The position numbers were made by a program, and so were the translations under genes. From an uncultured Pelagibacteraceae bacterium (GTDB lineage Bacteria; Pseudomonadota; Alphaproteobacteria; Pelagibacterales; Pelagibacteraceae): 64,000 nucleotides of DNA. Positions 14,542 to 26,464 of this stretch are shown piece by piece. Location of the stretch: the NCBI GenBank assembly GCA_902567045.1, contig CACFLJ010000002.1, positions 105,820-169,819 on the forward strand, read 5' to 3'. How positions within the stretch are numbered: position 1 is the stretch's first letter; each line of letters begins with the position of its first letter. The notes beneath the pieces are model-generated. The model was not told the origin of the DNA and ran no database searches. It worked only from the letters and a program-made list of their open reading frames with translations.

Positions 14542-15201
14542 TTACTTTGTTGGATCTGGAACTTTTCTTAAATAAGGCTTAACTGTTTCCCATCCATCTG
14601 GATATATTTTTTTAGCCTCATCGTCTTTTACAGCTGGAAGAATAACTACGTCCTCACCTTTTTTCCAATTAGCTGGAGTAGCAACTCTATGTTTTGCAGT
14701 AAGTTGCATTGAGTCTATGGCTCTCAAAATTTCATGGAAATTTCTACCTGTAGCCATTGGGTAAGTTAAATAAAGACCAATTCTTTTATCTGGTCTTACA
14801 ACAAAAATAGTTCTAACAGTCTCATTATCAACTGCTGTTCTTCCCATTGAAGTTGTTCCTGCATCGGCCTCTAACATATTGAAAAGTTTTGCAACTTTTA
14901 AATCTTCATCAGCGATAATAGGATAATCAGGCATCGTTCCAGATACATCTTTGATATCTTCCAACCATTTTTTGTGATCCTCGACCCCATCTACACTTAG
15001 TCCGATTACTTTTACATTTCTTGCATCAAACTCAGCTTTCATTTGTCCTAATGAACCTAATTCTGTAGTACAAACTGGTGTAAAATCTTTTGGGTGAGAA
15101 AATAATACGCCCCAACTATCTCCAAGCCACTCATGGAAAGAGATATCTCCCTCTGTAGTTTTGCATTGAAAATCAGGACACATACTGTTTATTTTTAACA
15201 T
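14542..15201 (-). CDS. 1-Cys peroxiredoxin (Prx6 family)
   Basis: A 219-residue peroxidase reducing hydrogen peroxide and organic peroxides. The peroxidatic Cys44 lies in PVCTTE, and Thr41 and an Arg further on complete the site. The C-terminal arm typical of Prx6/AhpC2-like enzymes (KGEDVVILPAV, then YLRKVPDP) is complete, and no resolving cysteine is at the usual 2-Cys position. A good ribosome site (AAGGAGAG) precedes the ATG. It is divergent from the sulfide-oxidising operon across 130 bases, so the two units could respond to the same redox or sulfide signal. Confidence 0.93.
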   Translation of the reverse strand: MLKINSMCPDFQCKTTEGDISFHEWLGDSWGVLFSHPKDFTPVCTTELGSLGQMKAEFDARNVKVIGLSVDGVEDHKKWLEDIKDVSGTMPDYPIIADEDLKVAKLFNMLEADAGTTSMGRTAVDNETVRTIFVVRPDKRIGLYLTYPMATGRNFHEILRAIDSMQLTAKHRVATPANWKKGEDVVILPAVKDDEAKKIYPDGWETVKPYLRKVPDPTK

Positions 15202-15331: not shown

Positions 15332-16573
15332 ATGAATAACTCTAATCACTCAAATATTTTGATTATCGGTGGCGGATGCGCTGGTATATCAGTTGCCACA
15401 AGACTTAAAAGTTTAAAGTCTGACTTATCAATATCAATTATAGAACCTTCAGAAAAATCTTTATATCAAGCTGCATGGACTTTAGTGGGTGCAGGTGCTT
15501 ATGATGTAAACAGCACTATAAAGCCAATGTCATCTGTAATGCCTAATTATGTTAATTGGATAAAAGAATATGCTGAAAGTTTTTCTCCAGAGTCAAACTC
15601 TGTAAAGACATCAAGTGGTGAATATTCATATGACTACTTAGTAGTTTGTCCTGGTTTAAAAATTAACTTTGATGGAGTGGCCGGGTTAAAAGAAACTTTA
15701 GGAAAAAATAATGTTTGTACCAATTATAGTTCAGATATGGCTGTTTATACTTGGGAATGTCTAAAAAATTTACAGGGAGGAAATTTACTATTCACTGAAC
15801 CTCCAATGCCAATTAAGTGTGCAGGAGCGCCTCAAAAAATAGCATATTTAGCTGCTGATCACTTAAAGAAAAAGGGGGCTCTTAAAGATAGTAATTTAGA
15901 ATTTTTATGTGCGAAGCCAGTTATTTTTGGTGTACCTCACTTTCAAGGTCCACTAAATGAAATATGCGACTCATATGGAATCAAAAGAAGCTTCCAACAT
16001 AATTTAATTTCAGTAAATGGTGAAGCCAAAGAGGCTGTCTTCAAACAATCTGATAAAGATGGAAATTCCAAAGAAGTTACAAAAAAATTTGATTTTATTC
16101 ATGTAACACCGCCTCAAACTTCTCCAGACTTTATTAAGAATAGTCCATTAGCTGATGCTGGTGGATGGGTTGATGTAGATCATAAAGAAGGGACATTAAG
16201 ACATACTAAGTATGAAAATATTTACAGTTTAGGAGATGTAATGAATGCACCTAATGCAAAAACAGGTGCAGCAGTTAGAAAACAAGCACCAATAGTTGCA
16301 CATAACATTATAAAGGATATTAATAAATCATCTGAAGCATATAGACTTTACGATGGATACGGAGCTTGTCCTCTAACAGTTGCATATGGAAAAGTAATGT
16401 TAGCTGAATTTTGTTACGGTGGAAAAGTAACTCCAAGTTTACCTTTTGACCCAACAAAACCTAGTTCTTTATATTGGCAAATGAAATCAAAGCTATTTCC
16501 CTGGTTGCAATGGAATGTGATGTTTAAAGGCAAAGAATGGAGCAAGCCTAATCATAAAGCTATTGAAAATTAG
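15332..16573 (+). CDS. sqr: Sulfide:quinone oxidoreductase, type II (SQOR-like)
   Basis: A membrane-associated flavoprotein of 413 residues that oxidises sulfide, passing electrons to quinone and sulfane sulfur to a thiol acceptor. FAD is bound by GGGCAG (residues 13-18). The two redox cysteines of the SQOR group are recognisable: Cys163 in IKCAGAPQK and Cys346 in YGACPL, matching the human SQOR cysteines. The start at 15332 is preferred over an in-frame ATG at 15293, whose extra 13 residues lie ahead of the flavin fold. It is the first gene of a five-gene rightward operon; the next gene consumes its persulfide product. Confidence 0.92.
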   Translation: MNNSNHSNILIIGGGCAGISVATRLKSLKSDLSISIIEPSEKSLYQAAWTLVGAGAYDVNSTIKPMSSVMPNYVNWIKEYAESFSPESNSVKTSSGEYSYDYLVVCPGLKINFDGVAGLKETLGKNNVCTNYSSDMAVYTWECLKNLQGGNLLFTEPPMPIKCAGAPQKIAYLAADHLKKKGALKDSNLEFLCAKPVIFGVPHFQGPLNEICDSYGIKRSFQHNLISVNGEAKEAVFKQSDKDGNSKEVTKKFDFIHVTPPQTSPDFIKNSPLADAGGWVDVDHKEGTLRHTKYENIYSLGDVMNAPNAKTGAAVRKQAPIVAHNIIKDINKSSEAYRLYDGYGACPLTVAYGKVMLAEFCYGGKVTPSLPFDPTKPSSLYWQMKSKLFPWLQWNVMFKGKEWSKPNHKAIEN

Positions 16574-16608: not shown

Positions 16609-17301
16609 ATGATTTTTGAACAACTATTTGACACTAAATCCTCAACTTACACTTATATTATTTCTAGTGGAAAAGGACGTGAGGCATTAATCATAGATCC
16701 TGTAATTGAGCACACTGATGAATACATAAAAATTTTAGAAAATTTAGATCTAAAACTTGTAAAAGTAATTGATACTCATATTCATGCAGATCATGTAACT
16801 GGATTAAATGAACTTAATGAAAGAACTAAATGTGTACGTATAATGGGTGAAAACTCTAAATCTGAAGTTATTGATATAAAATTAAAAGATGATGAGAATA
16901 TAAATATAGAGAATATTGAACTTAAAGCCATTTATACGCCGGGTCATACAGATTGTTCATATAGTTACTTAATGAATGATAGAGTTTTTACAGGAGACAC
17001 GCTTTTAATTAATGGGACAGGAAGAACTGACTTTCAAAATGGTAGCGCCCATGAAGCCTATGACTCATTATTTGGTAAACTTTTAAAGCTTCCAGAAGAA
17101 ACTCTTGTTTATCCTGCTCATGATTATAATGGGAAAAAAAGCTCCACAATTGGTAACGAAAAAAGTAATAATCCTCGATTACAAGTTAGCTCAAAAGAGG
17201 AATATGCTGAAATAATGGATAATCTTAATCTTGCCAATCCAAAAATGATGGATATCGCAGTACCAGCAAATCTAAAGGGATTAACGCTTAAAGAACTCTA
17301 A
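16609..17301 (+). CDS. Persulfide dioxygenase (ETHE1-like)
   Basis: A 230-residue metallo-beta-lactamase-fold enzyme that oxidises glutathione persulfide to sulfite. The HxHxDH motif (THIHADH, His57-His62), His113 and Asp130 are present; His57, His113 and Asp130 match the mononuclear iron ligands of ETHE1. The block GTGRTDFQNG (136-145), with its substrate-binding Arg139, and YPAHDYNG (168-175) closely match ETHE1. It lies 35 bases after SQR, so the pair forms the usual sulfide-to-sulfite module. There is no rhodanese domain. Confidence 0.92.
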   Translation: MIFEQLFDTKSSTYTYIISSGKGREALIIDPVIEHTDEYIKILENLDLKLVKVIDTHIHADHVTGLNELNERTKCVRIMGENSKSEVIDIKLKDDENINIENIELKAIYTPGHTDCSYSYLMNDRVFTGDTLLINGTGRTDFQNGSAHEAYDSLFGKLLKLPEETLVYPAHDYNGKKSSTIGNEKSNNPRLQVSSKEEYAEIMDNLNLANPKMMDIAVPANLKGLTLKEL

Positions 17302-17496: not shown

Positions 17497-18078
17497 ATGA
17501 ATGATTTTTTAGAGTCGATAATTAAAAGAGATCCTGCTGCAAGATCAAAGTTAAGTTTAATACTAACTTATCCTGGTGTTAAAGCTGTATTTTTTCATAG
17601 AATTGCAAATTTTTTTTCAATTGCAAAATTTCATCTTGTTGCAAGAATAATTTCTCAGTTCTCAAGATTTTTAACAGGTATAGAAATTCATCCAAATGCT
17701 AAAATTGGAAAAAATCTTTTTATAGATCATGGTATGGGAGTGGTTATAGGAGAAACTTCTGATATTGGAGATAACGTAACCATCTATCACATGGCAACAT
17801 TAGGTGGAATTGCTCCGAGTATTAATTCAGATGATCAAAGAAATGTTAAGAGGCACCCAACATTAAAAGAAAATGTTGTTGTTGGATCAGGTGCACAAAT
17901 ACTTGGACCAGTTGTGGTTGGTAAAAATGCAAAAATTGGAGCTAATGCTGTTGTTACTAAAGATGTTCCAGAAAATGCAGTAATGGTTGGAATTCCTGCA
18001 AAAAATGTTGGAACTGCATCCGAAGAATTTAAACCCTATGGTGTTGCACCAGGGGGTGATACAAAGCTTGATGTATGA
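17497..18078 (+). CDS. cysE: Serine O-acetyltransferase
   Basis: A 193-residue left-handed beta-helix acetyltransferase making O-acetylserine for cysteine synthesis. [11 protein letters not shown] leads into the hexapeptide repeats, with catalytic His78 in IDHGMG and [10 protein letters not shown] after it; [20 protein letters not shown] closes the helix. It is the short form, lacking much of the N-terminal helical domain of E. coli CysE. ATGA overlap (4 bases) with cysK implies coupled translation. The C-terminal end is extended past the helix and may interact with CysK. Confidence 0.93.
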
Positions 18079-19076
18079 AAACTTTACAAAATAATTTTGT
18101 CGAAGCAATAGGAAATACACCTTTATTTAAATTAAAAGCTGCATCAGAAATTACTGGTTGTAATATTTATGGAAAAGCAGAGTACCTTAATCCAGGTGGT
18201 TCAGTTAAAGATAGAGCAGCTCTAGCTTTAATAAGAGATGCTGAAGAAAAAAAACTAATTTCAAAAGGTGGAACAATTGTTGAAGGAACTGCTGGTAATA
18301 CTGGAATTGGATTATGTCTATTAGGAAATTCTATTGGTTATAAAACTATTATTGTAATGAACGATAATCAAACACAAGAAAAAAAAGATTTATTAAGAAA
18401 TATTGGAGCTGATTTAAGGTTGGTTCCACCAAAACCATATAAAGATGAAAATAACTTTGTTAAATATGCAGGAAGATTGGCTGATGAATTGAAGAGTAGT
18501 AACAATCACGGTGTAGTTTGGGCTAATCAATTTGACAATACTGCTAATTCTAAAGGTCATTACGAAACAACCGGACCAGAAATATGGGAACAGACTGACG
18601 GCAAAATTGATGGTTTTGTATGTTCATCTGGTACTGGTGGTACAATTGCAGGGGTTAGTAGCTTTTTAAAAGAAAAGAATAAAGATATTAAAATATATTT
18701 ATCGGATCCAACAGGTTCCTCTCTTTATAGTTACATTGAAAATGGTGAATTAAAGAGTGAAGGTGGTTCAATAACTGAAGGTATTGGATCTAGTAGGGTT
18801 ACTGCAAATTTTGCAAAAGCAAAAATTGATGGAGCATTTTCAATAAGTGATCATGAGTCTTTGCCTGTTTTATTTGATTTAATTGAAAAAGAAGGCTTAA
18901 GTTTAGGTACAAGTTGTGGAGTAAACATAGCTGGAGCAATAAGATTGGGTAAACTTTTAGGACCAGGTAAAACGATTGTAACAATACTTTGTGATAAATC
19001 TGATAAATACAACTCTAAGATGTTTAATAAATCTTTTTTAAAAGAAAAAGGTCTTCCCTATCCTCACTGGATATAA
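18075..19076 (+). CDS. cysK: Cysteine synthase A (O-acetylserine sulfhydrylase)
   Basis: A 333-residue PLP enzyme forming cysteine from O-acetylserine and sulfide. The PLP lysine is Lys45 ([10 protein letters not shown]). The substrate loop is GTAGNTG (71-77), and the phosphate-binding loop SGTGGT lies at 185-190. Length and motifs are standard for the CysK group. As the last gene of the sulfide operon, it offers an assimilatory outlet for sulfide alongside oxidation by SQR and persulfide dioxygenase. Confidence 0.94.
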
Positions 19077-19119
19077 TCACGCATAGCAGTGCTGTAATAA
19101 ATTCATTACATTTCTATCT

Positions 19120-19125
19120 TATAAT
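19120..19125 (+). promoter_or_regulatory. TATAAT-like -10 box before the small-gene cluster
   Basis: A perfect TATAAT lies 36 bases before the first ATG of the cluster, in the 85-base gap after cysK. No convincing -35 element is at the standard spacing, and such hexamers are common in AT-rich DNA. Together with the strong ribosome site AAAGGAG just before 19162 it suggests a new transcription unit begins here. Confidence 0.3.
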
Positions 19126-19161: not shown

Positions 19162-19545
19162 ATGGACGTAAAAGAACAAACAAAAAAAGCATATGAACTA
19201 TTTGGTTCAGGAGATATGGAAACATTTTTTAAAGATATGATTGATGATGAAATCGTTTGGACATTTCCAGGCAAAGAAGGTGTACATCCACTTTCTGGAG
19301 TTCACAAAGGAAAACAAGCTATGATGGCTGCAATGTCTAAAATTCCTGCAACATGGCCAAATTTCCATTTGAAAGTTTTAGATATGATAAGTGAAGGAAA
19401 TAAAGTTTTTGCAAGAGTTCATGCAACTGCGGATAACATGGATACAATGTTTGGTCACTATTTTGAAGTAAGTGATGAGGGAAAAACTAAAGTTATGATG
19501 ACATTTGATGACACGCTTAGCATGTTCAACGCTATGAAGAAATAA
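19162..19545 (+). CDS. NTF2/SnoaL-like protein
   Basis: A 127-residue protein with the cone-shaped NTF2/SnoaL pattern: N-terminal helix ending YELFGSGDMETFFK, then IDDEIVWTFPGK, GVHKGKQAMMAAM, and strands holding VFARVHATADN. Members are small isomerases, cyclases, hydrolases or binding proteins with a deep pocket. Polar pocket candidates are Asp and Trp in DDEIVWTF. A near-consensus ribosome site (AAAGGAG) precedes the ATG. It is the first of ten short rightward genes. The function is unknown. Confidence 0.75.
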   Translation: MDVKEQTKKAYELFGSGDMETFFKDMIDDEIVWTFPGKEGVHPLSGVHKGKQAMMAAMSKIPATWPNFHLKVLDMISEGNKVFARVHATADNMDTMFGHYFEVSDEGKTKVMMTFDDTLSMFNAMKK

Positions 19546-19553
19546 GGAACAAT

Positions 19554-19883
19554 ATGTCAATTTTAGAAAAATTAAATAAAGTCATCATGGAAAAAGATGG
19601 TGCAGCAGCAGCTGAGATTATTCATGATGATTATAAGAGATATTCTCATCTTCAGGGAGCCTATACTGAAAGTGGAAAAACAGGTATGATTGAAGCAATT
19701 AACAAAGGTTTCATGAAAGTTGATAAATATAGAATTTTATATGAAAACGATGAAATAGGTTTTGATCATTCTATTGTTACTTATGCCGAAGATGGAAATA
19801 AAGAGGCTTTAATGTGTTATTGGAAATTTAAAGATGGTAAAATCATTGAACTCGAAACAGGCGCAACCAAAATACCAAAATAA
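19554..19883 (+). CDS. NTF2-like small protein (paralogue of 21809-22129)
   Basis: A 109-residue protein beginning MSILEKLNKVIMEKDG and ending IIELETGAT. The layout (leading helix, HDDYKRYSH, mid-sequence YENDEIGFDHS, terminal strand with GKIIELETGA) is that of a compact NTF2-like fold. The gene at 21809 shares the start MSILEK, the YENDE motif and the LETGAT end, so the two are clear paralogues in one cluster. It is 8 bases after the previous gene. There is no recognisable catalytic residue set. Confidence 0.7.
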   Translation: MSILEKLNKVIMEKDGAAAAEIIHDDYKRYSHLQGAYTESGKTGMIEAINKGFMKVDKYRILYENDEIGFDHSIVTYAEDGNKEALMCYWKFKDGKIIELETGATKIPK

Positions 19884-19909
19884 TTATAAACTAACAGAAG
19901 GAGTTTGAT

Positions 19910-20260
19910 ATGAGTAGTATTGAAGTTAAAACCTTTGATAAAGCAGATGAGGTAGTTGATAAGTTTAATAATGCTAAAATAGAAGCAGTTAAAGTAGGCG
20001 GTCAAAGAGTAGTTAGATTACATTTAAAACCAGGATGGAAATGGTCTACAGATGTTAAGCCACATATTGGAACTGACAGTTGTCAGGCAAACCATATTGG
20101 AATTATCACAAAGGGATCTGTTTGTGCAAAACACGATGATGGAACAGAGGTTACATATAAAGCGGGAGACTCTTACTCCGTAACACCAGGGCATGACGCT
20201 TGGGTAGTTGGCAATGAACCTGTTGAAGCATATGAATTTGCTGGGGTTTGGGGGGAATAA
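19910..20260 (+). CDS. Cupin-domain protein
   Basis: A 116-residue single-domain cupin. VVRLHLKPGWKWS leads into the first motif with NHIGIITKGSVCAKHDDG (histidines 62 and 75), and the second motif has YKAGDSYSVTPGHDAWVVGNE (His95). These can form a beta-barrel metal site, though the first motif is not the full HxHx(3-4)E pattern, so metal binding is uncertain. It might be a small dioxygenase, isomerase or sensor. AAGGAG lies 6 bases before the ATG. It is part of the small-gene cluster. Confidence 0.8.
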   Translation: MSSIEVKTFDKADEVVDKFNNAKIEAVKVGGQRVVRLHLKPGWKWSTDVKPHIGTDSCQANHIGIITKGSVCAKHDDGTEVTYKAGDSYSVTPGHDAWVVGNEPVEAYEFAGVWGE

Positions 20261-20261
20261 A

Positions 20262-20531
20262 ATGGTAAAAATGGTTGGTAACTTTGAAGTAAAAGACTGG
20301 GCTCACTGGAAAAAAATGTTTGATGAACACTCTGGCCCAAGAGAAGCAGCAGGTATCAAAACTATTTACGTTGGTAATGAATTAGAAAATCCAAATAAGG
20401 TACATATTGTGATGGAAACACCAGCAGCTGACACTATGCAAAAATTTATGCAGAATCCGGAGAATGCAAAAGTAATTGCGGAATCTGGTCATAAACAAGA
20501 GACTACAGTAATGAGCGTTTGCTCTGACTAA
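20262..20531 (+). CDS. Small dimeric alpha/beta-barrel-like protein
   Basis: An 89-residue protein from the ATG at 20262, one base after the cupin stop. An upstream in-frame ATG at 20208 lies inside the cupin gene and is rejected. The pattern strand-helix-strand-strand-helix-strand (MVGNFEVKDWAHWKKMFDEH, then VHIVMET, then a helix, then ETTVMSV) is that of ferredoxin-like alpha/beta-barrel proteins related to ABM and the DUF3764-type group. These often dimerise around a small hydrophobic pocket. The function is unknown. Confidence 0.65.
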   Translation: MVKMVGNFEVKDWAHWKKMFDEHSGPREAAGIKTIYVGNELENPNKVHIVMETPAADTMQKFMQNPENAKVIAESGHKQETTVMSVCSD

Positions 20532-20552
20532 ACAACAAAAAAAGGAGAAAAA

Positions 20553-20840
20553 ATGAAATACTATATGGTAACTCACACTTTTAAATCAAAAGAAATGAAA
20601 GACAAATTTAACGAGGTTTTAGGTGGCATGTCCAGAGAAGATATGATTAAATCTTCTACTAGCGATAAAGCTAAATGCCAAATGACATATTACACTCCAG
20701 GTGATACTATGACAATGTTTTGTCATTGGATGGCAGAAAGTACTGATGCTATTAATGAACAGCTTTCTCAGATGAATGATTTTTTTGAACCTCACCAATT
20801 TACTGAGGTTAAAGAAGAAGTTTTCGATTTTAACAAATAG
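20553..20840 (+). CDS. Small alpha/beta-barrel-like protein of unknown function
   Basis: A 95-residue protein starting MKYYMVTHTF, with a helix KSKEMKDKFNEVLGG, a strand QMTYYTPGDTMTMFCHWMA and a final helix and strand. The short-strand/long-helix repeat resembles ferredoxin-like barrels such as the DUF3303-type proteins known from marine cyanobacteria; this resemblance is an impression, not a search result. A strong ribosome site (AAAGGAG) precedes it. Nothing indicates catalysis. Confidence 0.6.
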   Translation: MKYYMVTHTFKSKEMKDKFNEVLGGMSREDMIKSSTSDKAKCQMTYYTPGDTMTMFCHWMAESTDAINEQLSQMNDFFEPHQFTEVKEEVFDFNK

Positions 20841-20849
20841 GAGGAAAAA

Positions 20850-21140
20850 ATGGAAAAAGAAGTTTTAGTGATCGTAGATTTGAAAGAAGGAAAACTTGAA
20901 AAATTTATGGGATGGATGCAATCAGATGAGGGTATGAGTGTAAGAAAATCAGCAGCTCATCCAGAAAAAACTATAGGAGCAGTAAAGCCAGATAAAAGTG
21001 GCGTAATGTTTAAGGTATTTGTTCATAATATGGAAAAAATGAAAGAACTAATATCTGGTACACATCCAGTTGGAAAGGAAATTTATGATGAATGTGTTAT
21101 CAAGATGACTGCTTGGGACTTGACTAAGGTTGAAATGTAA
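20850..21140 (+). CDS. Small alpha/beta-barrel-like protein of unknown function
   Basis: A 96-residue protein with strand EVLVIVDL, helix LEKFMGWMQ, strand VMFKVFVHNMEKMKEL and end VIKMTAWDL. It looks like another ferredoxin-like barrel, distinct in sequence from its neighbours. AGGAGG, the best ribosome site seen in this window, is 5 bases before the ATG. It is 9 bases from the preceding gene and one base from the next. The function is unknown. Confidence 0.6.
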   Translation: MEKEVLVIVDLKEGKLEKFMGWMQSDEGMSVRKSAAHPEKTIGAVKPDKSGVMFKVFVHNMEKMKELISGTHPVGKEIYDECVIKMTAWDLTKVEM

Positions 21141-21141
21141 T

Positions 21142-21465
21142 ATGGCAAAATTTTACTTAATAGGCAAGATAAGTGGAGAACTAATGAAAAGAATGCAGAA
21201 CGAACCAACTGCAGACAGATTTGCTTCTACAAAAAAGGTAACAGAAGCAGCTGGTTTAAAGCTTATTTCTTACGAGTGGGTTAGAGGTAGATTTGATGTA
21301 ATCTCTTGCGTTGAAGGGGAATACGAACAAGCCGTTGCATTAAAGATAGCTTTTAAAAATTCTGGACTTATGGATGATTTAATGGTCCATGAGGTAATAG
21401 ATTACAATAAAGCTTTCAGTAATGCTGCCAGTGCTGCAAAAACAGTCGTCAAGCCTGCTGAATAA
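21142..21465 (+). CDS. GYD-like small barrel protein
   Basis: A 107-residue protein from the ATG at 21142, directly after the preceding stop with no ribosome site of its own, so translation is probably coupled. An in-frame ATG at 21130 lies inside the previous gene and is rejected. The start KFYLIGKISGE, the central YEWVRGRFDVISCVEGE (in place of the G-Y-D motif) and the following helix ALKIAFKNSG match the GYD family, a ferredoxin-like fold of unknown function. The C-terminal end is Ala/Lys-rich. Confidence 0.65.
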   Translation: MAKFYLIGKISGELMKRMQNEPTADRFASTKKVTEAAGLKLISYEWVRGRFDVISCVEGEYEQAVALKIAFKNSGLMDDLMVHEVIDYNKAFSNAASAAKTVVKPAE

Positions 21466-21497
21466 TATATAATTTATTTTAAAAAAAGGAGTAAATT

Positions 21498-21785
21498 ATG
21501 AGTGCTTATGTATTATCGAGTATTAAGGTCAACAATCCCGATAACTATAAAGAATATGTCACAAAAGTTAAGTCTATAGTTGAAAAATTTGGTGGAGAGT
21601 ACTTGGTTAGAGGTGGAGAGATGACAGTTATTGAGGGTGAATGGAATAATCCTAGATCTATCGTGATTAAATTTCAATCAAAAGAAAAAGCGATGGAATG
21701 GTATAACTCGGATGAATACAAACCAATTAGACAGATAAGACATGATAATGCTGTGTCAAATTCTATAATTGTTGAAGGAATATAA
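21498..21785 (+). CDS. DUF1330 family protein
   Basis: A 95-residue ferredoxin-like protein. The pattern AYVLSSIKVNNPDNYKEYV, then GGEYLVRGGEMTVIEGEW, then a helix with AMEWYNSDEYKPIRQIR is characteristic of DUF1330, whose members form dimeric alpha/beta barrels. No activity is established for the family. It has a strong ribosome site (AAAGGAG) and is 32 bases after the GYD-like gene. Confidence 0.85.
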   Translation: MSAYVLSSIKVNNPDNYKEYVTKVKSIVEKFGGEYLVRGGEMTVIEGEWNNPRSIVIKFQSKEKAMEWYNSDEYKPIRQIRHDNAVSNSIIVEGI

Positions 21786-21808
21786 AAATATTATAAAAGG
21801 AGATAAGA

Positions 21809-22129
21809 ATGTCAATATTAGAAAAATATAGTGCTGCATTAAAAAATAAAGATGAAGCAGCTATGAATGAACTTTTGCATGATGATTTCAAATTTACTAT
21901 GCATAAATCAGGAAATACTTTAGGCAAAACTGAAGTGATCAAATGGGCGATGAGCGGTGATATTAATCAAAGAGATACACGAGTAGTATATGAAAATGAT
22001 GAAGTGGGTGTACATCATGCATTTGTAACATTTGACGATGGAAATACTGAAGCAGTGATGGCAGTCTATAAATATGATAATGGAAAAATTATTAGTTTAG
22101 AGACTGGTGCAACTCCAATGCCTAAATAG
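21809..22129 (+). CDS. NTF2-like small protein (paralogue of 19554-19883)
   Basis: A 106-residue NTF2-like protein sharing with the gene at 19554 the start MSILEKY, the LHDDFKF step, the YENDEVGVHHA motif and the end IISLETGATPMPK. It is strongly translated, judging by AAAAGGAGAT before its ATG. The stop TAG overlaps the GTG start of the cupredoxin by one base, so the two are probably coupled. The function is unknown. Confidence 0.7.
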   Translation: MSILEKYSAALKNKDEAAMNELLHDDFKFTMHKSGNTLGKTEVIKWAMSGDINQRDTRVVYENDEVGVHHAFVTFDDGNTEAVMAVYKYDNGKIISLETGATPMPK

Positions 22130-22626
22130 TGAAAAAACTTATACTTTTATTTATTTTTATCGCCTTTAATTCTAATGCAGCTTCAATGAAGATGCTTGGA
22201 TCTAAGGGCGATCCAAACGATGTTACTAGAGTAATAGAAGTAAAGATGTATGACAATTATTATAAGCCAAGTTCAATTCAAGTTAAAAAAGGTGAAACAG
22301 TAAAAATAATTGTTAAAAATTTAGGTGAACTTGTTCATGAGTATAATATTGCTACAAAAGAGATGCACATTAAACATACAACTGAGATGGCAAAATTAAT
22401 TGAAAATGATATTCTATTAGGTGATAGTATCGATCATGCTAAAATGAAGGAAATGTCTAAAAAAGATCCTTCACTTGGTCATAAGCATGCTAATAGCGTA
22501 ATGTTAGAGCCTAATAAAACTGGGGAAATTATTTGGAAATTTTCAAATGATATAGCATTAGAAATGGCATGTAATATTCCAGGTCATTATGAAACTGGAA
22601 TGGTTGGACCAATAATAATTAAGTAA
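22129..22626 (+). CDS. Periplasmic cupredoxin with His/Met-rich insert
   Basis: A 165-residue exported blue-copper-type protein starting at GTG, in TAGTG overlap with the preceding gene. The signal peptide covers residues 1-18. VIEVKMYDNYYKPSSIQVKKG is the usual cupredoxin start. The likely copper ligands are His70, Cys148, His153 and Met158. Between the first His and the Cys is an insert (about residues 75-121) with several His and Met (MHIKH, DHAKMKEM, GHKHANSVM), which could hold extra copper. This resembles the periplasmic copper-tolerance/carrier cupredoxins of Proteobacteria. It ends the cluster. Confidence 0.85.
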   Translation: MKKLILLFIFIAFNSNAASMKMLGSKGDPNDVTRVIEVKMYDNYYKPSSIQVKKGETVKIIVKNLGELVHEYNIATKEMHIKHTTEMAKLIENDILLGDSIDHAKMKEMSKKDPSLGHKHANSVMLEPNKTGEIIWKFSNDIALEMACNIPGHYETGMVGPIIIK

Positions 22627-22674
22627 ATTTAAAATTTTGTAGATATTAATTTTAGATAATATTATTCTAAATTG

Positions 22675-23010
22675 ATGAATAATATAACTGCTTATATAAT
22701 CTTAATAATTGCAGTTGCTTTAGGGACTGCTTCAAATAGTTTTGCGAAAACTGCAAATGGTTTTGCAATATTTTTACCAAGTGTTTTTACAGCAATAACA
22801 ATAGTTGCTTGTATGTATACGCTGTCTTTAGTTATGAAAACTATTCCTGTTGGAGTAACTTATGCTTCATTTGCAGGTTTATGTATAATTGCAACATCTA
22901 TCGTTGGAGTTTATAAGTTTAATCAAATACCAGATCTTTTTACAATCATAGGACTTATATTAATTATATCAGGAGTATTGATTGTAAATTTAGTTGGAAA
23001 ATCAAGTTAA
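22675..23010 (+). CDS. SMR-family (EmrE-like) small membrane transporter lacking the usual Glu14
   Basis: A protein of about 111 residues with four hydrophobic segments, starting at the ATG at 22675 (a TTG one codon earlier is in frame). Sequence and size match the gene at 607-942: both have N-S-F-A-K before the NGF/DGF turn and a GVLIVN/GVIMVN end. The position of the essential EmrE Glu14 is again glycine (residue 17 from the chosen start). It follows the cupredoxin by 48 bases and may belong to that transcript. Confidence 0.75.
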   Translation: MNNITAYIILIIAVALGTASNSFAKTANGFAIFLPSVFTAITIVACMYTLSLVMKTIPVGVTYASFAGLCIIATSIVGVYKFNQIPDLFTIIGLILIISGVLIVNLVGKSS

Positions 23011-23014
23011 AATA

Positions 23015-23359
23015 TCAAATTTCACTTGGTATATCGTGCTTGCCATCTTCTTTAAGATCTAAAGAGTATTCTTTAATTACACAATCTATATCAAAATCCG
23101 AGTATAAATGAGGAAACATATCTCCAGAAGATGATTGTTCCCAAACTAATTTTTGAAGTTTTAGTGCATCTACTTTCAAAAGCACTAAGTTAGTTTGGTT
23201 GCCATAAAATTTATTAAGTGTTTGTTTTACTTGATTTTTATCTGAGAAATGGATGAAACCATCTTTTAAATCAAGAAGTGTACCTTTAAAAATTTTATTT
23301 TCTTTAGCATCTCTCCACTCTGATTTTGTGCAAATTTTATAAACAAAATCAAAATTCAT
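23015..23359 (-). CDS. DUF952 family protein
   Basis: A 114-residue protein of the DUF952 family: VYKICTKSEWRDA at the start, GFIHFSDKNQVKQTLNKFY, LVLLKVDALKL and a terminal FPHLYSDFDIDCV. The conserved FIHFS and PHLY segments are present. The fold is related to ADP-ribosyltransferase-like proteins, but no role is established. It lies one base from the AhpD-like gene and converges on the SMR gene. Confidence 0.85.
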   Translation of the reverse strand: MNFDFVYKICTKSEWRDAKENKIFKGTLLDLKDGFIHFSDKNQVKQTLNKFYGNQTNLVLLKVDALKLQKLVWEQSSSGDMFPHLYSDFDIDCVIKEYSLDLKEDGKHDIPSEI

Positions 23360-23360
23360 T

Positions 23361-23747
23361 TTATTTTAGAAAATCATCAACTTCTACTTGATATCCTTCA
23401 ACTAAACGGTTTGTTTCATTTGCCATTCCTACAATTGCAATCATTTCGTTTATCATTGCATCTGTCGCACCTTTTTTTCTGGCTGCTATAGAATGAGATT
23501 TAATACAATATTCACAATTGTTAGTAATTGAAACTGCAACATAAATGAGTTCCTTTACTGCAGGATCTAATTCACCTTTTCCCATTACTTGCTGTAATGA
23601 TCTCCAGGTTCTTTCTAATGTTTCTGGACTATTAGCCATAGTTTTCCAAAAATTTGGAATTTCAGTTATTTGTCGAGCTTCTTTTATTTCATCAAAAATT
23701 TCTTTTACTTTGCTAGTTGCGTCTTTTTCTTCAATTGGTTTGAACAT
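23361..23747 (-). CDS. Carboxymuconolactone decarboxylase/AhpD-like protein
   Basis: A 128-residue helical protein of the CMD/AhpD family. The redox motif CEYCIKSH (about residues 78-85) with a conserved Glu upstream (KELIYVAVS) resembles the AhpD proton relay, suggesting peroxidase-reductant or alkylhydroperoxidase-like activity, or a decarboxylase-like role. AGGAGG-like sequence precedes the start. It is the second gene of the leftward unit amidotransferase-CMD-DUF952. Confidence 0.85.
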   Translation of the reverse strand: MFKPIEEKDATSKVKEIFDEIKEARQITEIPNFWKTMANSPETLERTWRSLQQVMGKGELDPAVKELIYVAVSITNNCEYCIKSHSIAARKKGATDAMINEMIAIVGMANETNRLVEGYQVEVDDFLK

Positions 23748-25345: not shown

Positions 25346-26464
25346 ATGCTCAATCTTATGAAAATTGAGTTAGATAACAATAAGGTTTTTTTTAGAGATG
25401 AAAATCTTAATGAAGAAATACATCCTTTTTGGCTCAGAGAAAGAGTAGAAAATGTTGAATTATTGGATCAAAAGACACAGCAGAGACTCTTTGATCCAAG
25501 CACAATGGAATCAGACGTCATTATCAAATCTGCAATAATTGAAAAAGACCTATTAAACATAACTTTTTCAGATGGAATAGAAACTAAAATTGATATTAAT
25601 AAAATAATTCGAGAATTTAAAAATTCCAACTCAATTAGTAAAATCAAAGAAAAAGTAAAATGGACTTCATCACTTGATGGTGTAAAAAAATTCAATTTTC
25701 ATGAGAATATTTATGAAAGTGTTGAAATGCATGAATTGCTTGCTTCTTTTTACAAGTATGGATTTGCAATTATAAAGAATGTTCCAACTAATGATAATTA
25801 TTTAATCAAATTTGCAAACTCAATAGGCAGTGTTAGAAGAACTAATTTTGGCGAACACTTTAATGTTTCATCAAAACCTAACCCTAATGATCTTGCATAT
25901 ACACCGTTACCTTTGGCTCCTCACACCGATAATCCATATAGAAATCCAGTCCCTTGTATTCAGATATTGCATTGTATTGAAAATGAAGTAACTGGTGGTT
26001 TATCAACGTTGGTCGATGGTTATACTGTAACTGAAGATTTAAAAAAAGATTTTCCTGAATATTATGAAATATTAACCAAAGTAAAAGTAAAATTTAAATT
26101 TATTGATAAAGATGTGATTTTAGAAGACTGGTCTGAATTGATAGAGCTCGATGAAAACAAGAATTTTAAACAGGTTAGATTTAGTCCTCGGCTTGATTAC
26201 GTTCCGGTTTTAAAAAAAGAGGAACTAGACCTTTATTATAAGGCTAGAAAAAAATTATCCGATTTATATAACTCTGATTTCTATAGAATAGAATTTAGAT
26301 TAATGTCTGGAGATTTAATTATGATGGATAATTACAGATTACTTCATGGTAGAACAGAATTTAATCCAAATGAAGGTAAAAGATTTTTACAAGGGTGCTA
26401 TATTGAATATGATAGTACTGATAGCAAGCTTAGACATTTACAAAGAAAGTTTAATATAAATTAA
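25346..26464 (+). CDS. Gamma-butyrobetaine hydroxylase-like Fe(II)/2-oxoglutarate dioxygenase
   Basis: A 372-residue dioxygenase of the BBOX/TauD group. The first 90 residues form the small zinc-type domain typical of gamma-butyrobetaine hydroxylase (HPFWLRERV). The iron ligands are His193 and Asp195 (PHTDNPYR) and His334 (LLHGRTEF). It probably hydroxylates a trimethylammonium compound, as gamma-butyrobetaine to carnitine, which would link to quaternary amine use and the betaine transporter here. A second ATG four codons in (25358) is a possible start. It converges on ccdA with one base between. Confidence 0.85.
   Translation: MLNLMKIELDNNKVFFRDENLNEEIHPFWLRERVENVELLDQKTQQRLFDPSTMESDVIIKSAIIEKDLLNITFSDGIETKIDINKIIREFKNSNSISKIKEKVKWTSSLDGVKKFNFHENIYESVEMHELLASFYKYGFAIIKNVPTNDNYLIKFANSIGSVRRTNFGEHFNVSSKPNPNDLAYTPLPLAPHTDNPYRNPVPCIQILHCIENEVTGGLSTLVDGYTVTEDLKKDFPEYYEILTKVKVKFKFIDKDVILEDWSELIELDENKNFKQVRFSPRLDYVPVLKKEELDLYYKARKKLSDLYNSDFYRIEFRLMSGDLIMMDNYRLLHGRTEFNPNEGKRFLQGCYIEYDSTDSKLRHLQRKFNIN

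Follow-up and report, generated by a model that had tools for sequence, protein, structure and literature searches.

Small-gene arrays between cysK and an SMR gene in Pelagibacter vary in content and draw on a shared pool of families

In integron cassette arrays, variable genes stand behind a fixed promoter and are separated by attC sites, which are longer than about 55 nt. Chromosomal regions of variable content have also been described in SAR11 bacteria, where PMC2217521 distinguishes the hypervariable regions HVR1 to HVR4 and gives their gene content for HTCC1062; the parts of that article considered here name transport and secretion, LPS, and unknowns with ordL-osmC-bhmT. Flexible genomic islands of the replacement type, described in aquatic bacteria, are the subject of PMC4033161, whose title names homologous recombination and whose portion considered here concerns similar functions encoded by different genes at the same position.

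We analysed a window of 64,000 nt from an uncultured Pelagibacteraceae bacterium, in which a row of small genes fills the slot between cysK and a gene for an SMR efflux transporter. Like HVR1–HVR4, this is a variable-gene chromosomal slot in the same bacteria; the lists for HVR1, HVR3 and HVR4 and part of that for HVR2, in which many entries are 'unknown', name none of the array families or flanks (PMC2217521). Unlike those regions, the slot is short, draws on a recurring pool and carries a conserved element. It also resembles the replacement islands, as far as these are characterised in the portion of PMC4033161 considered, but turnover here affects individual small genes whose order stays nearly fixed. 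A literature search of titles and abstract openings returned no earlier description of a small-gene array between cysK and SMR.

Ten small genes in the window and their neighbours

Positions 19162–22626 contain, tightly packed on the plus strand, nine successive genes of 89–127 codons and then a gene for a secreted-looking cupredoxin, an arrangement already recognised in the sequence-only reading and confirmed by the open frames. The first gene, g1 (19162..19545, 127 aa), encodes an NTF2-like protein of the SnoaL_2 family (Pfam E 1.2e-11), and g2 (19554..19883, 109 aa) an NTF2-like paralogue of g9, with 48% identity to it and a sub-cut-off match to DUF4440 (E 0.0044). The product of g3 (19910..20260, 116 aa) is cupin-like (Cupin_2, E 4.6e-4, sub-cut-off), that of g4 (20262..20531, 89 aa counted from ATG) belongs to DUF3764 (Pfam E 1.2e-10), and that of g5 (20553..20840, 95 aa) resembles SCO4226 (Pfam E 6.2e-4, sub-cut-off). 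For g6 (20850..21140, 96 aa) there is no Pfam family, the best match being no better than E 0.22. These are followed by the GYD-like g7 (21142..21465, 107 aa counted from ATG; Pfam E 1.6e-5, sub-cut-off), the DUF1330 member g8 (21498..21785, 95 aa; Pfam E 3.4e-31), g9 (21809..22129, 106 aa; SnoaL_2/DUF4440, NTF2 fold) and the CopI-like cupredoxin gene g10 (22129..22626, 165 aa; Cupredoxin_1, 33.2 bits), whose start resembles a signal peptide when judged by eye. Pfam cut-offs were thus exceeded for g1, g4, g8, g9 and g10, and matches stayed below them for g2, g3, g5 and g7; among the family names proposed earlier, DUF1330 and cupredoxin stood, NTF2-like stood for g1 and g9 through SnoaL_2, and cupin and GYD were recovered at sub-threshold level only. 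As a CopI copper-resistance cuproprotein (NF051440), g10 scored 146.6 bits, under the NCBIfam equivalog cut-off of 280.

Spacings from g1 to g10 are 8, 26, 1, 21, 9, 1, 32, 23 and −1 nt. The run of small genes is not due to chance, because nine consecutive genes of at most 130 aa were obtained in 0 of 100,000 permutations of the 72 script-called genes of at least 80 aa in the window, and median dN/dS across relatives was 0.036–0.294 for g1–g10. Strong SD sites precede seven of nine array genes and 12 of 56 others; even so, high expression of the array is not indicated, because its codon usage is not raised (mean CAI 0.667 versus 0.692 in 56 other genes, p 0.14, with the start of g7 placed 42 nt late by the script).

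Outside the array lie genes for a 1-Cys type AhpC/TSA peroxiredoxin (14542..15201, minus strand; Pfam and NCBIfam), a flavoprotein resembling type III sulfide:quinone reductase (15332..16573, plus strand; NF049943, 208.7 bits, short of the cut-off of 525) and a metallo-beta-lactamase-fold protein (16609..17301, plus strand), which is over the Pfam cut-off and whose glyoxalase II/sulfur dioxygenase-like NCBIfam names are sub-cut-off. The upstream flank, recognised by synteny, consists of two plus-strand genes that we take from their sequence, without a family call, to encode a serine acetyltransferase (SAT, 17497..18078) and a cysteine synthase-like protein (cysK, 18075..19076). A link to sulfur starvation through cysK was dropped, since PMC5069961, in the part considered, reports no upregulation of cysK and cysE in that context. 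The working name cysQ likewise proved poor, because the gene so labelled scores best with a HisN model, below its cut-off. Directly after the cluster, about 46 nt past g10, starts an EmrE/Qac-type SMR gene (22672–23010, plus strand; PF00893, E 1.9e-13) that had been missed in the sequence-only reading and may have its own promoter, separate from the array. Beyond it, convergent genes for DUF952 (23015..23359) and an AhpD/carboxymuconolactone decarboxylase-family protein (23361..23747) lie on the minus strand, where they had been reported.

A shared pool in near-fixed order

The slot holds 3–12 genes (median 8) in Pelagibacter relatives, mostly from a pool of about two dozen families. From 106 loci that contained both cysK and an end marker, mostly fetched via g6 or g9, we obtained 99 distinct arrays with 59 ordered gene lists; a tblastn recount gave 57 family sets, the gene caller having missed 4 of 712 family occurrences. 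The SMR gene came first among the end markers in 97 of the 99 arrays, 745 of 752 plus-strand array genes encoded at most 200 aa, and six ORFs belonged to none of the numbered families. The pool is still open: the family count stood at 29.9 with 60 arrays and reached 34 with all 99, mostly because of families met once or twice.

Members keep a near-fixed order. For family pairs that recur, 2551 of 2617 co-occurrences follow the majority order (97%; 2569 of 2632 by tblastn), and g6 comes before g9 in 93 of 93 arrays (tblastn). The family of g9 and g2 occurs in 98 of 99 arrays, many found via g9; because most loci were fetched through g6 or g9, both families are over-represented in these counts. 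The commonest other counted in-window family, g8, is still absent from 32 of the 99 arrays, and g1, g3, g4, g5, g7, g8 and g10 are each absent from at least 32 (g2 was counted together with g9).

These absences bear on a fixed multi-step pathway acting on one labile metabolite, an enzyme chain that had been among the options first proposed. Operon-like spacing and near-fixed order would suit it, but 57 family sets, a minimum of three genes and the frequent loss of families besides g9 and g6 do not; such a pathway is already strained, because it would require a constant core beyond these two families, and we regard it as the least probable of the explanations weighed here. The ten genes are one strain's draw from a shared pool, not a fixed ten-gene pathway.

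Several array families also cluster together, at a different site, in a second alphaproteobacterial order, where g9 is present in 41 of 52 genomes of one family (f32). Among the 30 best-listed loci of that order, g6 adjoins g9 or is separated from it by g3 alone in 29, with g3 present in 10, and F9 joins the cluster in four further loci. At least two pool members stand behind cysK in 41 of 44 readable regions from 48 sampled Pelagibacter genomes with cysK. The genes are therefore not scattered but belong together, because pool members recur behind cysK and g6 clusters with g9 in the second order. The arrangement g6-g3-F9-g9 is not shared with Pelagibacter, since g3 lies on either side of g6 there (before it in 13 arrays, after it in nine); in L265, the single region of that genus in which F9 and g3 were noticed together, F9 precedes g3. 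In a phylum sample, g3 was found in 8 of 349 genomes, its own included, and was an isolated gene in the five outside loci examined of seven.

The conserved element and the turnover of genes

A 30-bp element, GCATANCNG-N3-TGTAAY-N6-RTTACA, lies behind cysK at 19081..19110 (plus strand); it contains an inverted repeat (19093–19110) and is a predicted promoter/operator. A candidate −10 hexamer, TATAAT, was located by eye at 19120..19125 (plus strand). Allowing up to three mismatches, we found the element in 63 of 99 arrays, and in 61 of these it begins no more than 10 nt from the cysK stop; 36 arrays lack it at this threshold. The first gene after it is g1 in 43 arrays, F5 in 10, g6 in five, g5 and F21 in two each, and another in one. 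Shuffled arrays contained no copy (0/99), the reversed pattern was absent from all 101 genomes, and the genome of the window has one copy of the element. In another clade, 27 of 30 arrays have GCATANCNG ahead of their first gene; no clear copy was seen by eye before g6 in two second-order loci. A riboswitch was rejected, because no Rfam family reached its gathering score anywhere in the 64-kb window and because the element, standing ahead of the candidate −10, is probably not transcribed. The term 'cysK' is absent from the main text, in the part considered, of a structured-RNA survey (PMC2704228).

The predicted promoter might correspond to the fixed promoter of integrons; the array differs from cassette arrays in its near-fixed order and in gaining genes inside the row and not at the start alone. 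With lengths of −1 to 32 nt, the window's spacers are too short for attC sites; those of relatives have a median of 14 nt, with 119 of 653 exceeding 57 nt, as judged by length. No integron integrase (TIGR02249) exceeded the cut-off in 61 genomes of the genus, the sub-threshold matches (18–29 bits) in 45 of these being equally present in 14 of 14 control genomes. It is possible, if doubtful, that the slot is an integrase-free cassette platform of SAR11 and a second streamlined marine order, in which a shared deck of tiny ligand-pocket proteins would be recombined in place at a fixed site, behind one promoter in SAR11, to give strain-specific small-molecule immunity.

Of 539 pairs of close relatives, defined by a cysK identity of 93% or more, 474 differed in content and 65 had identical content, so that, as in flexible islands, close relatives carry different genes at the same site. 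Alleles diverge as well: the flanking genes cysK and SAT have median nucleotide identities of 0.950 and 0.957, compared with 0.71 in g1 and 0.835 in g8, and members besides g1, g2, g7 and g8 mostly diverge no more than the flanks (by median). All 15 array families tested are under purifying selection (median dN/dS 0.036–0.415). Where arrays differ by a gene-sized stretch, the difference often, though not always, sets in close to the stop codon of the gene before. We claim no recombination mechanism, because the footprint at the junctions is short and inconsistent, with overlaps of at most 14 nt and most medians below 0.

An ordinary flexible island, in which small genes gather without a common role, would agree with the slowly rising number of families, the published SAR11 hypervariable regions (PMC2217521, in the parts considered) and the replacement islands of aquatic bacteria (PMC4033161, likewise). 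It seems improbable to us, however: the pool is small and recurring, the order is near-fixed, the families tested are under purifying selection, 61 of 99 arrays share one conserved element whatever gene comes first, and several families recur in a second order. An arms race would be expected to produce turnover and allelic divergence as strong as those seen here, which would fit an island for phage defence or for inter-strain antagonism and immunity. Such an island we consider very improbable: PADLOC profiles gave one g7 match (E 0.003 over 32 residues), which is not credible, and none for the other nine genes, viral contigs contained no relatives of g9 or g6, the two families searched, and toxin-, nuclease- or adhesin-like members were not noticed.

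Possible roles of the array

We tentatively favour, at somewhat less than even chances, a reading in which the 3–12 pool genes behind the predicted promoter encode a variable complement of proteins for binding or converting harmful small molecules. Each single-domain protein would handle one class of reactive or toxic compound, its pocket isomerising, oxidising or sequestering the molecule; the SMR pump would export whatever remained, and as local chemistry shifts, members would be swapped by homologous recombination, both within the flanks and between genes. The detoxification and small-molecule-binding options of the sequence-only reading may still apply. A detoxification flavour is suggested by the sequences of the SMR end marker, of a VOC/glyoxalase (F35), a DsbA-fold protein (F4) and a secreted-looking cupin (F21) in the pool, and of the peroxiredoxin, AhpD-like and metallo-beta-lactamase-fold neighbours. 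SMR family members transport harmless metabolites too.

SAR11 bacteria are noted for consuming dissolved organic matter, and each small enzyme might instead open one rare dissolved organic compound as food, swaps fitting the set to the local menu. The isomerase- and oxygenase-like folds predicted for small members would be compatible with such scavenging, as would an ABC transporter-like block, presumably formed by F12, F16, F17 and F19 to judge from their sequences, beyond AhpD in some loci. SAR11 islands carry nutrient genes, according to the part of PMC7318151 considered. Importers and large catabolic enzymes are nevertheless not regular members of arrays composed almost wholly of genes of at most 200 aa, and the usual next gene encodes an exporter, which makes scavenging rather unlikely.

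SAR11 cells rank with the most abundant on Earth, and the group is noted for having shed nearly all spare genes; that so streamlined a genome keeps exchanging very small genes drawn from one limited common pool points to strong, variable selection, so far nameless. If the products neutralise small molecules, the array would be a chemical counterpart to phage-defence islands, and its content a readout of the compounds pressing on plankton. Many 'hypothetical' marine proteins would become members of one testable system, g6 alone having 2,156 matches at 90% identity clustering.

The earlier proposal of small-pocket folds held for the two modelled proteins. The model of g6 is a dimeric alpha+beta barrel of the ABM/NIPSNAP type, placing it by predicted fold with the ABM, NIPSNAP and LsrG barrels, and that of g9 has the NTF2/SnoaL fold of KSI, LEH and SnoaL, a superfamily assignment with which its Pfam profile agrees. 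Identities are 3–26% among the structural matches listed and function is not transferable, a fold by itself being no evidence of function. When solved structures were searched by sequence, g6 and g3 had no match at E 1 or better, g5 matched only an antibody chain (E 0.69), and g9 matched 2r4i (E 0.08) and a ribosome-associated protein (E 0.67). The cupin 3-His/1-Glu metal site has ligands in the pattern HxH...E...H; in five g3 sequences the HxH is missing and the first motif has no Glu, and C58, H62 and H95 are invariant.

Ten small genes between cysK and an efflux gene

Between 19162 and 22626 the plus strand of the window carries ten consecutive open frames (g1 to g10). The first nine code for 89-127 aa each and g10 for a cupredoxin of 165 aa whose start resembles a signal peptide, in agreement with the row of nine short genes and a secreted cupredoxin described in the sequence-only reading. 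Spacers among them measure -1 to 32 nt, strong Shine-Dalgarno sites accompany 7/9 short genes versus 12/56 other genes of at least 150 aa, and a run of nine genes of ≤130 aa appeared in none of 100,000 permutations; codon usage of this array gave no pointer to high expression. Five products passed the Pfam cut-off (g1 and g9, SnoaL_2; g4, DUF3764; g8, DUF1330; and g10), g2 (a paralogue of g9), g3 (cupin-like), g5 (SCO4226-like) and g7 (GYD-like) gave sub-threshold matches, and the Pfam search returned no family for g6, a predicted dimeric alpha+beta barrel. The window's genome (1.18 Mb in 27 contigs, 86% complete) encodes two SnoaL_2 proteins above cut-off, both within the array.

An SMR efflux gene lies directly downstream of g10, followed by the DUF952 and AhpD-like genes, convergent as had been proposed. 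Upstream are genes for a peroxiredoxin, an SQR-like flavoprotein and an MBL-fold protein, and two that, from their sequence, we take to be serine acetyltransferase (SAT) and cysK. Three genes past the convergent AhpD-like gene, at 25346-26464, is a Fe/2OG dioxygenase closely resembling TmpA (2-trimethylaminoethylphosphonate dioxygenase; 339.6 bits against a cut-off of 400); it possibly ties the neighbourhood to phosphonates or betaines.

A variable array behind cysK

Relatives of g6 occurred in 51/150 genomes (its own included), all from the window's genus, where g9 was present in 262/399 genomes and in 46/57 of those at least 90% complete. For 40 of the 50 relatives with g6 we examined some 8-16 kb surrounding it, and we kept 80 loci from at least 500 confirmed g9 matches in named genomes, all from Pelagibacteraceae, a lineage we take to be SAR11, or 'Candidatus Pelagibacter ubique' SCGC strains. 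With the window and two loci bearing the conserved element described below, 106 loci had cysK plus a downstream marker, leaving 99 arrays once identical ones were removed, which also deals with genomes seemingly sampled twice.

Array genes were called by a simple script, which overlooked 4/712 family occurrences found by tblastn and invented none. The 99 arrays comprise 59 ordered gene lists of 3-12 genes (median 8); 745/752 plus-strand genes are ≤200 aa, only six ORFs fall outside our numbered families, and the SMR gene is the first end marker in 97. Rare large intruders are F58 (428 aa; L058, L171), presumably enolase-superfamily-like, and F57 (about 290 aa; L051, L054), which from its sequence resembles an epimerase. 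Both tblastn and the called genes gave 57 family sets, to which a fixed pathway acting on one metabolite, as had been suggested for the window, is a poor fit.

Among 61 genus genomes, cysK was matched in 48. The array followed it in 26/26 genomes whose region had already been read; from the remaining 22, 20 were hand-picked for fetching (all except G051 and G054), two regions were too short, and 15 of the 18 readable ones had at least two members of the array families after cysK, such members not being found there in L259, L260 and L262. As these cysK-chosen regions also carry the array (41/44 overall), its position at cysK is not merely an effect of fetching loci via g6 or g9. In two of the three misses (G055, G024) the array is not at cysK but close to the genes that normally follow it downstream (L052, L068). 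Two other loci, L053 and L057, hold g6 without array or nearby cysK, once close to a g1-like gene, and are possible remnants or landing sites.

Content changes rapidly: only 65/539 close pairs (cysK at least 93% identical) shared the same content, with a mean of 2.31 families differing. Median nucleotide identity among close pairs was 0.71 for g1 and 0.835 for g8 versus 0.950 for cysK and 0.957 for SAT, and a minority of pairs fell below 85% identity for g2 (36%) and g7 (27%). Some members thus come in allele classes that are far apart although the flanks are alike; most others resemble the flanks in identity, and some variation is also seen downstream in DUF952, AhpD and SMR. Where the arrays of a pair differ, the difference often starts close to the preceding gene's stop codon. 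Recurring family pairs kept one order in 2551/2617 co-occurrences, both orders being seen for 19/138 pairs (2569/2632 and 17/136 in a tblastn recount). Median dN/dS ranged from 0.036 to 0.415 in the 15 families tested, a set leaving out F4 (DsbA-fold), F6, F18, F21 (a secreted-looking cupin) and other rarer families; single pairs reached 1.05 (g7), and F5 evolved fastest (median 0.415). F5 (e.g. L044:7501-7869) is small and secreted-looking, without Pfam family, and is the first gene in 10 element-bearing arrays.

The array falls under the definition of a flexible genomic island. In logic it is akin to integron cassette arrays, yet none of 61 genomes had an integron integrase above the cut-off, and the window array has no room for attC sites. 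The products listed for SAR11 HVR1-HVR4 in the accessible part of PMC2217521, many of them unknowns, do not match it. No earlier description was found in the literature searched, which mostly excluded subscription papers and preprints.

A conserved element and a proposed working

Behind cysK we found the pattern GCATANCNG-N3-TGTAAY-N6-RTTACA, with an A/T-rich candidate -10, identified by eye, about 9 nt past it. Allowing ≤3 mismatches, it was present in 63/99 arrays, 61 of these ≤10 nt from the cysK stop, and in none of the 99 shuffled arrays; at least five different first genes follow it. With ≤2 mismatches it occurred in 31/101 genomes, five matches in another family looking unrelated, and the reversed pattern had no matches in the 101. 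In the window the inverted repeat alone (one mismatch) turned up twice where 1.33 copies were expected, which does not exceed chance, and support for the candidate element comes from the full pattern and its position. The arms may change together (TGTAAT/ATTACA, TGTAAC/GTTACA), although covariation is only suggestive because at the position concerned 9 of 21 distinct 18-mers have combinations (four of them T-G) other than T-A (7) or C-G (5).

In another clade, F6 lies reversed between cysK and array, and GCATANCNG, found in 27/30, mostly precedes a conserved stretch of another kind. About 30 nt long, roughly TCGCGCG.TATAAACAC.AGAGACTC and often with AATGTAACA next, it lies upstream of the first array gene (L065, L066, L145-L178), is kept in most loci before varying first genes, and may be a second operator or RNA element.

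We propose that a putative regulator would recognise the element and turn on whichever genes a strain holds, that each of the small proteins would deal with one class of harmful small molecule by binding or converting it, that the SMR pump would export what is left, and that recombination would exchange array members. Detoxification is favoured over feeding, though only moderately, by the neighbouring exporter, the presence of VOC, DsbA-fold, AhpD-like and peroxiredoxin genes, the scarcity of large genes and the rapid turnover.

Relatives outside the genus

In a class sample, g9 occurred in 10/289 genomes and g6 in 3/289, counting the window's genome. Outside the genus we read ten loci with g9; the matches in G147 and G677, like some weak second ones, were not read separately. 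Seven (L183, L184, L186, L187, L189, L190, L192) contain a relative of another array family, some at just 28-42% identity, and the regions of L185, L188 and L191 contain none near g9. Both outside genomes with g6 hold g6, g3 and g9 in one cluster and belong to f32, a family of a second alphaproteobacterial order with genomes of about 1.4 Mb (G481: 1,410,127 bases).

Within f32, g9 was present in 41/52 genomes and 9/10 near-complete ones. Among the best 30 listed loci, g6 is directly beside g9, or separated only by g3, in 29, g3 is present in 10, and a same-sized 123-aa gene adjoins in 29. Family F9 is also present in L187, L243, L244 and L245, giving the order g6-g3-F9-g9; in Pelagibacter g6 precedes g9 as well, in 93/93, but g3 and F9 have no constant position.

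A second, looser f32 cluster (L184, L247, L248, L249) contains F59 and F14-, g4- and g1-like small barrel/NTF2 genes, accompanied by genes that, from sequence, are presumably thioredoxin-like. A serine-acetyltransferase-like gene (43% to SAT) lies nearby in three of these four loci.
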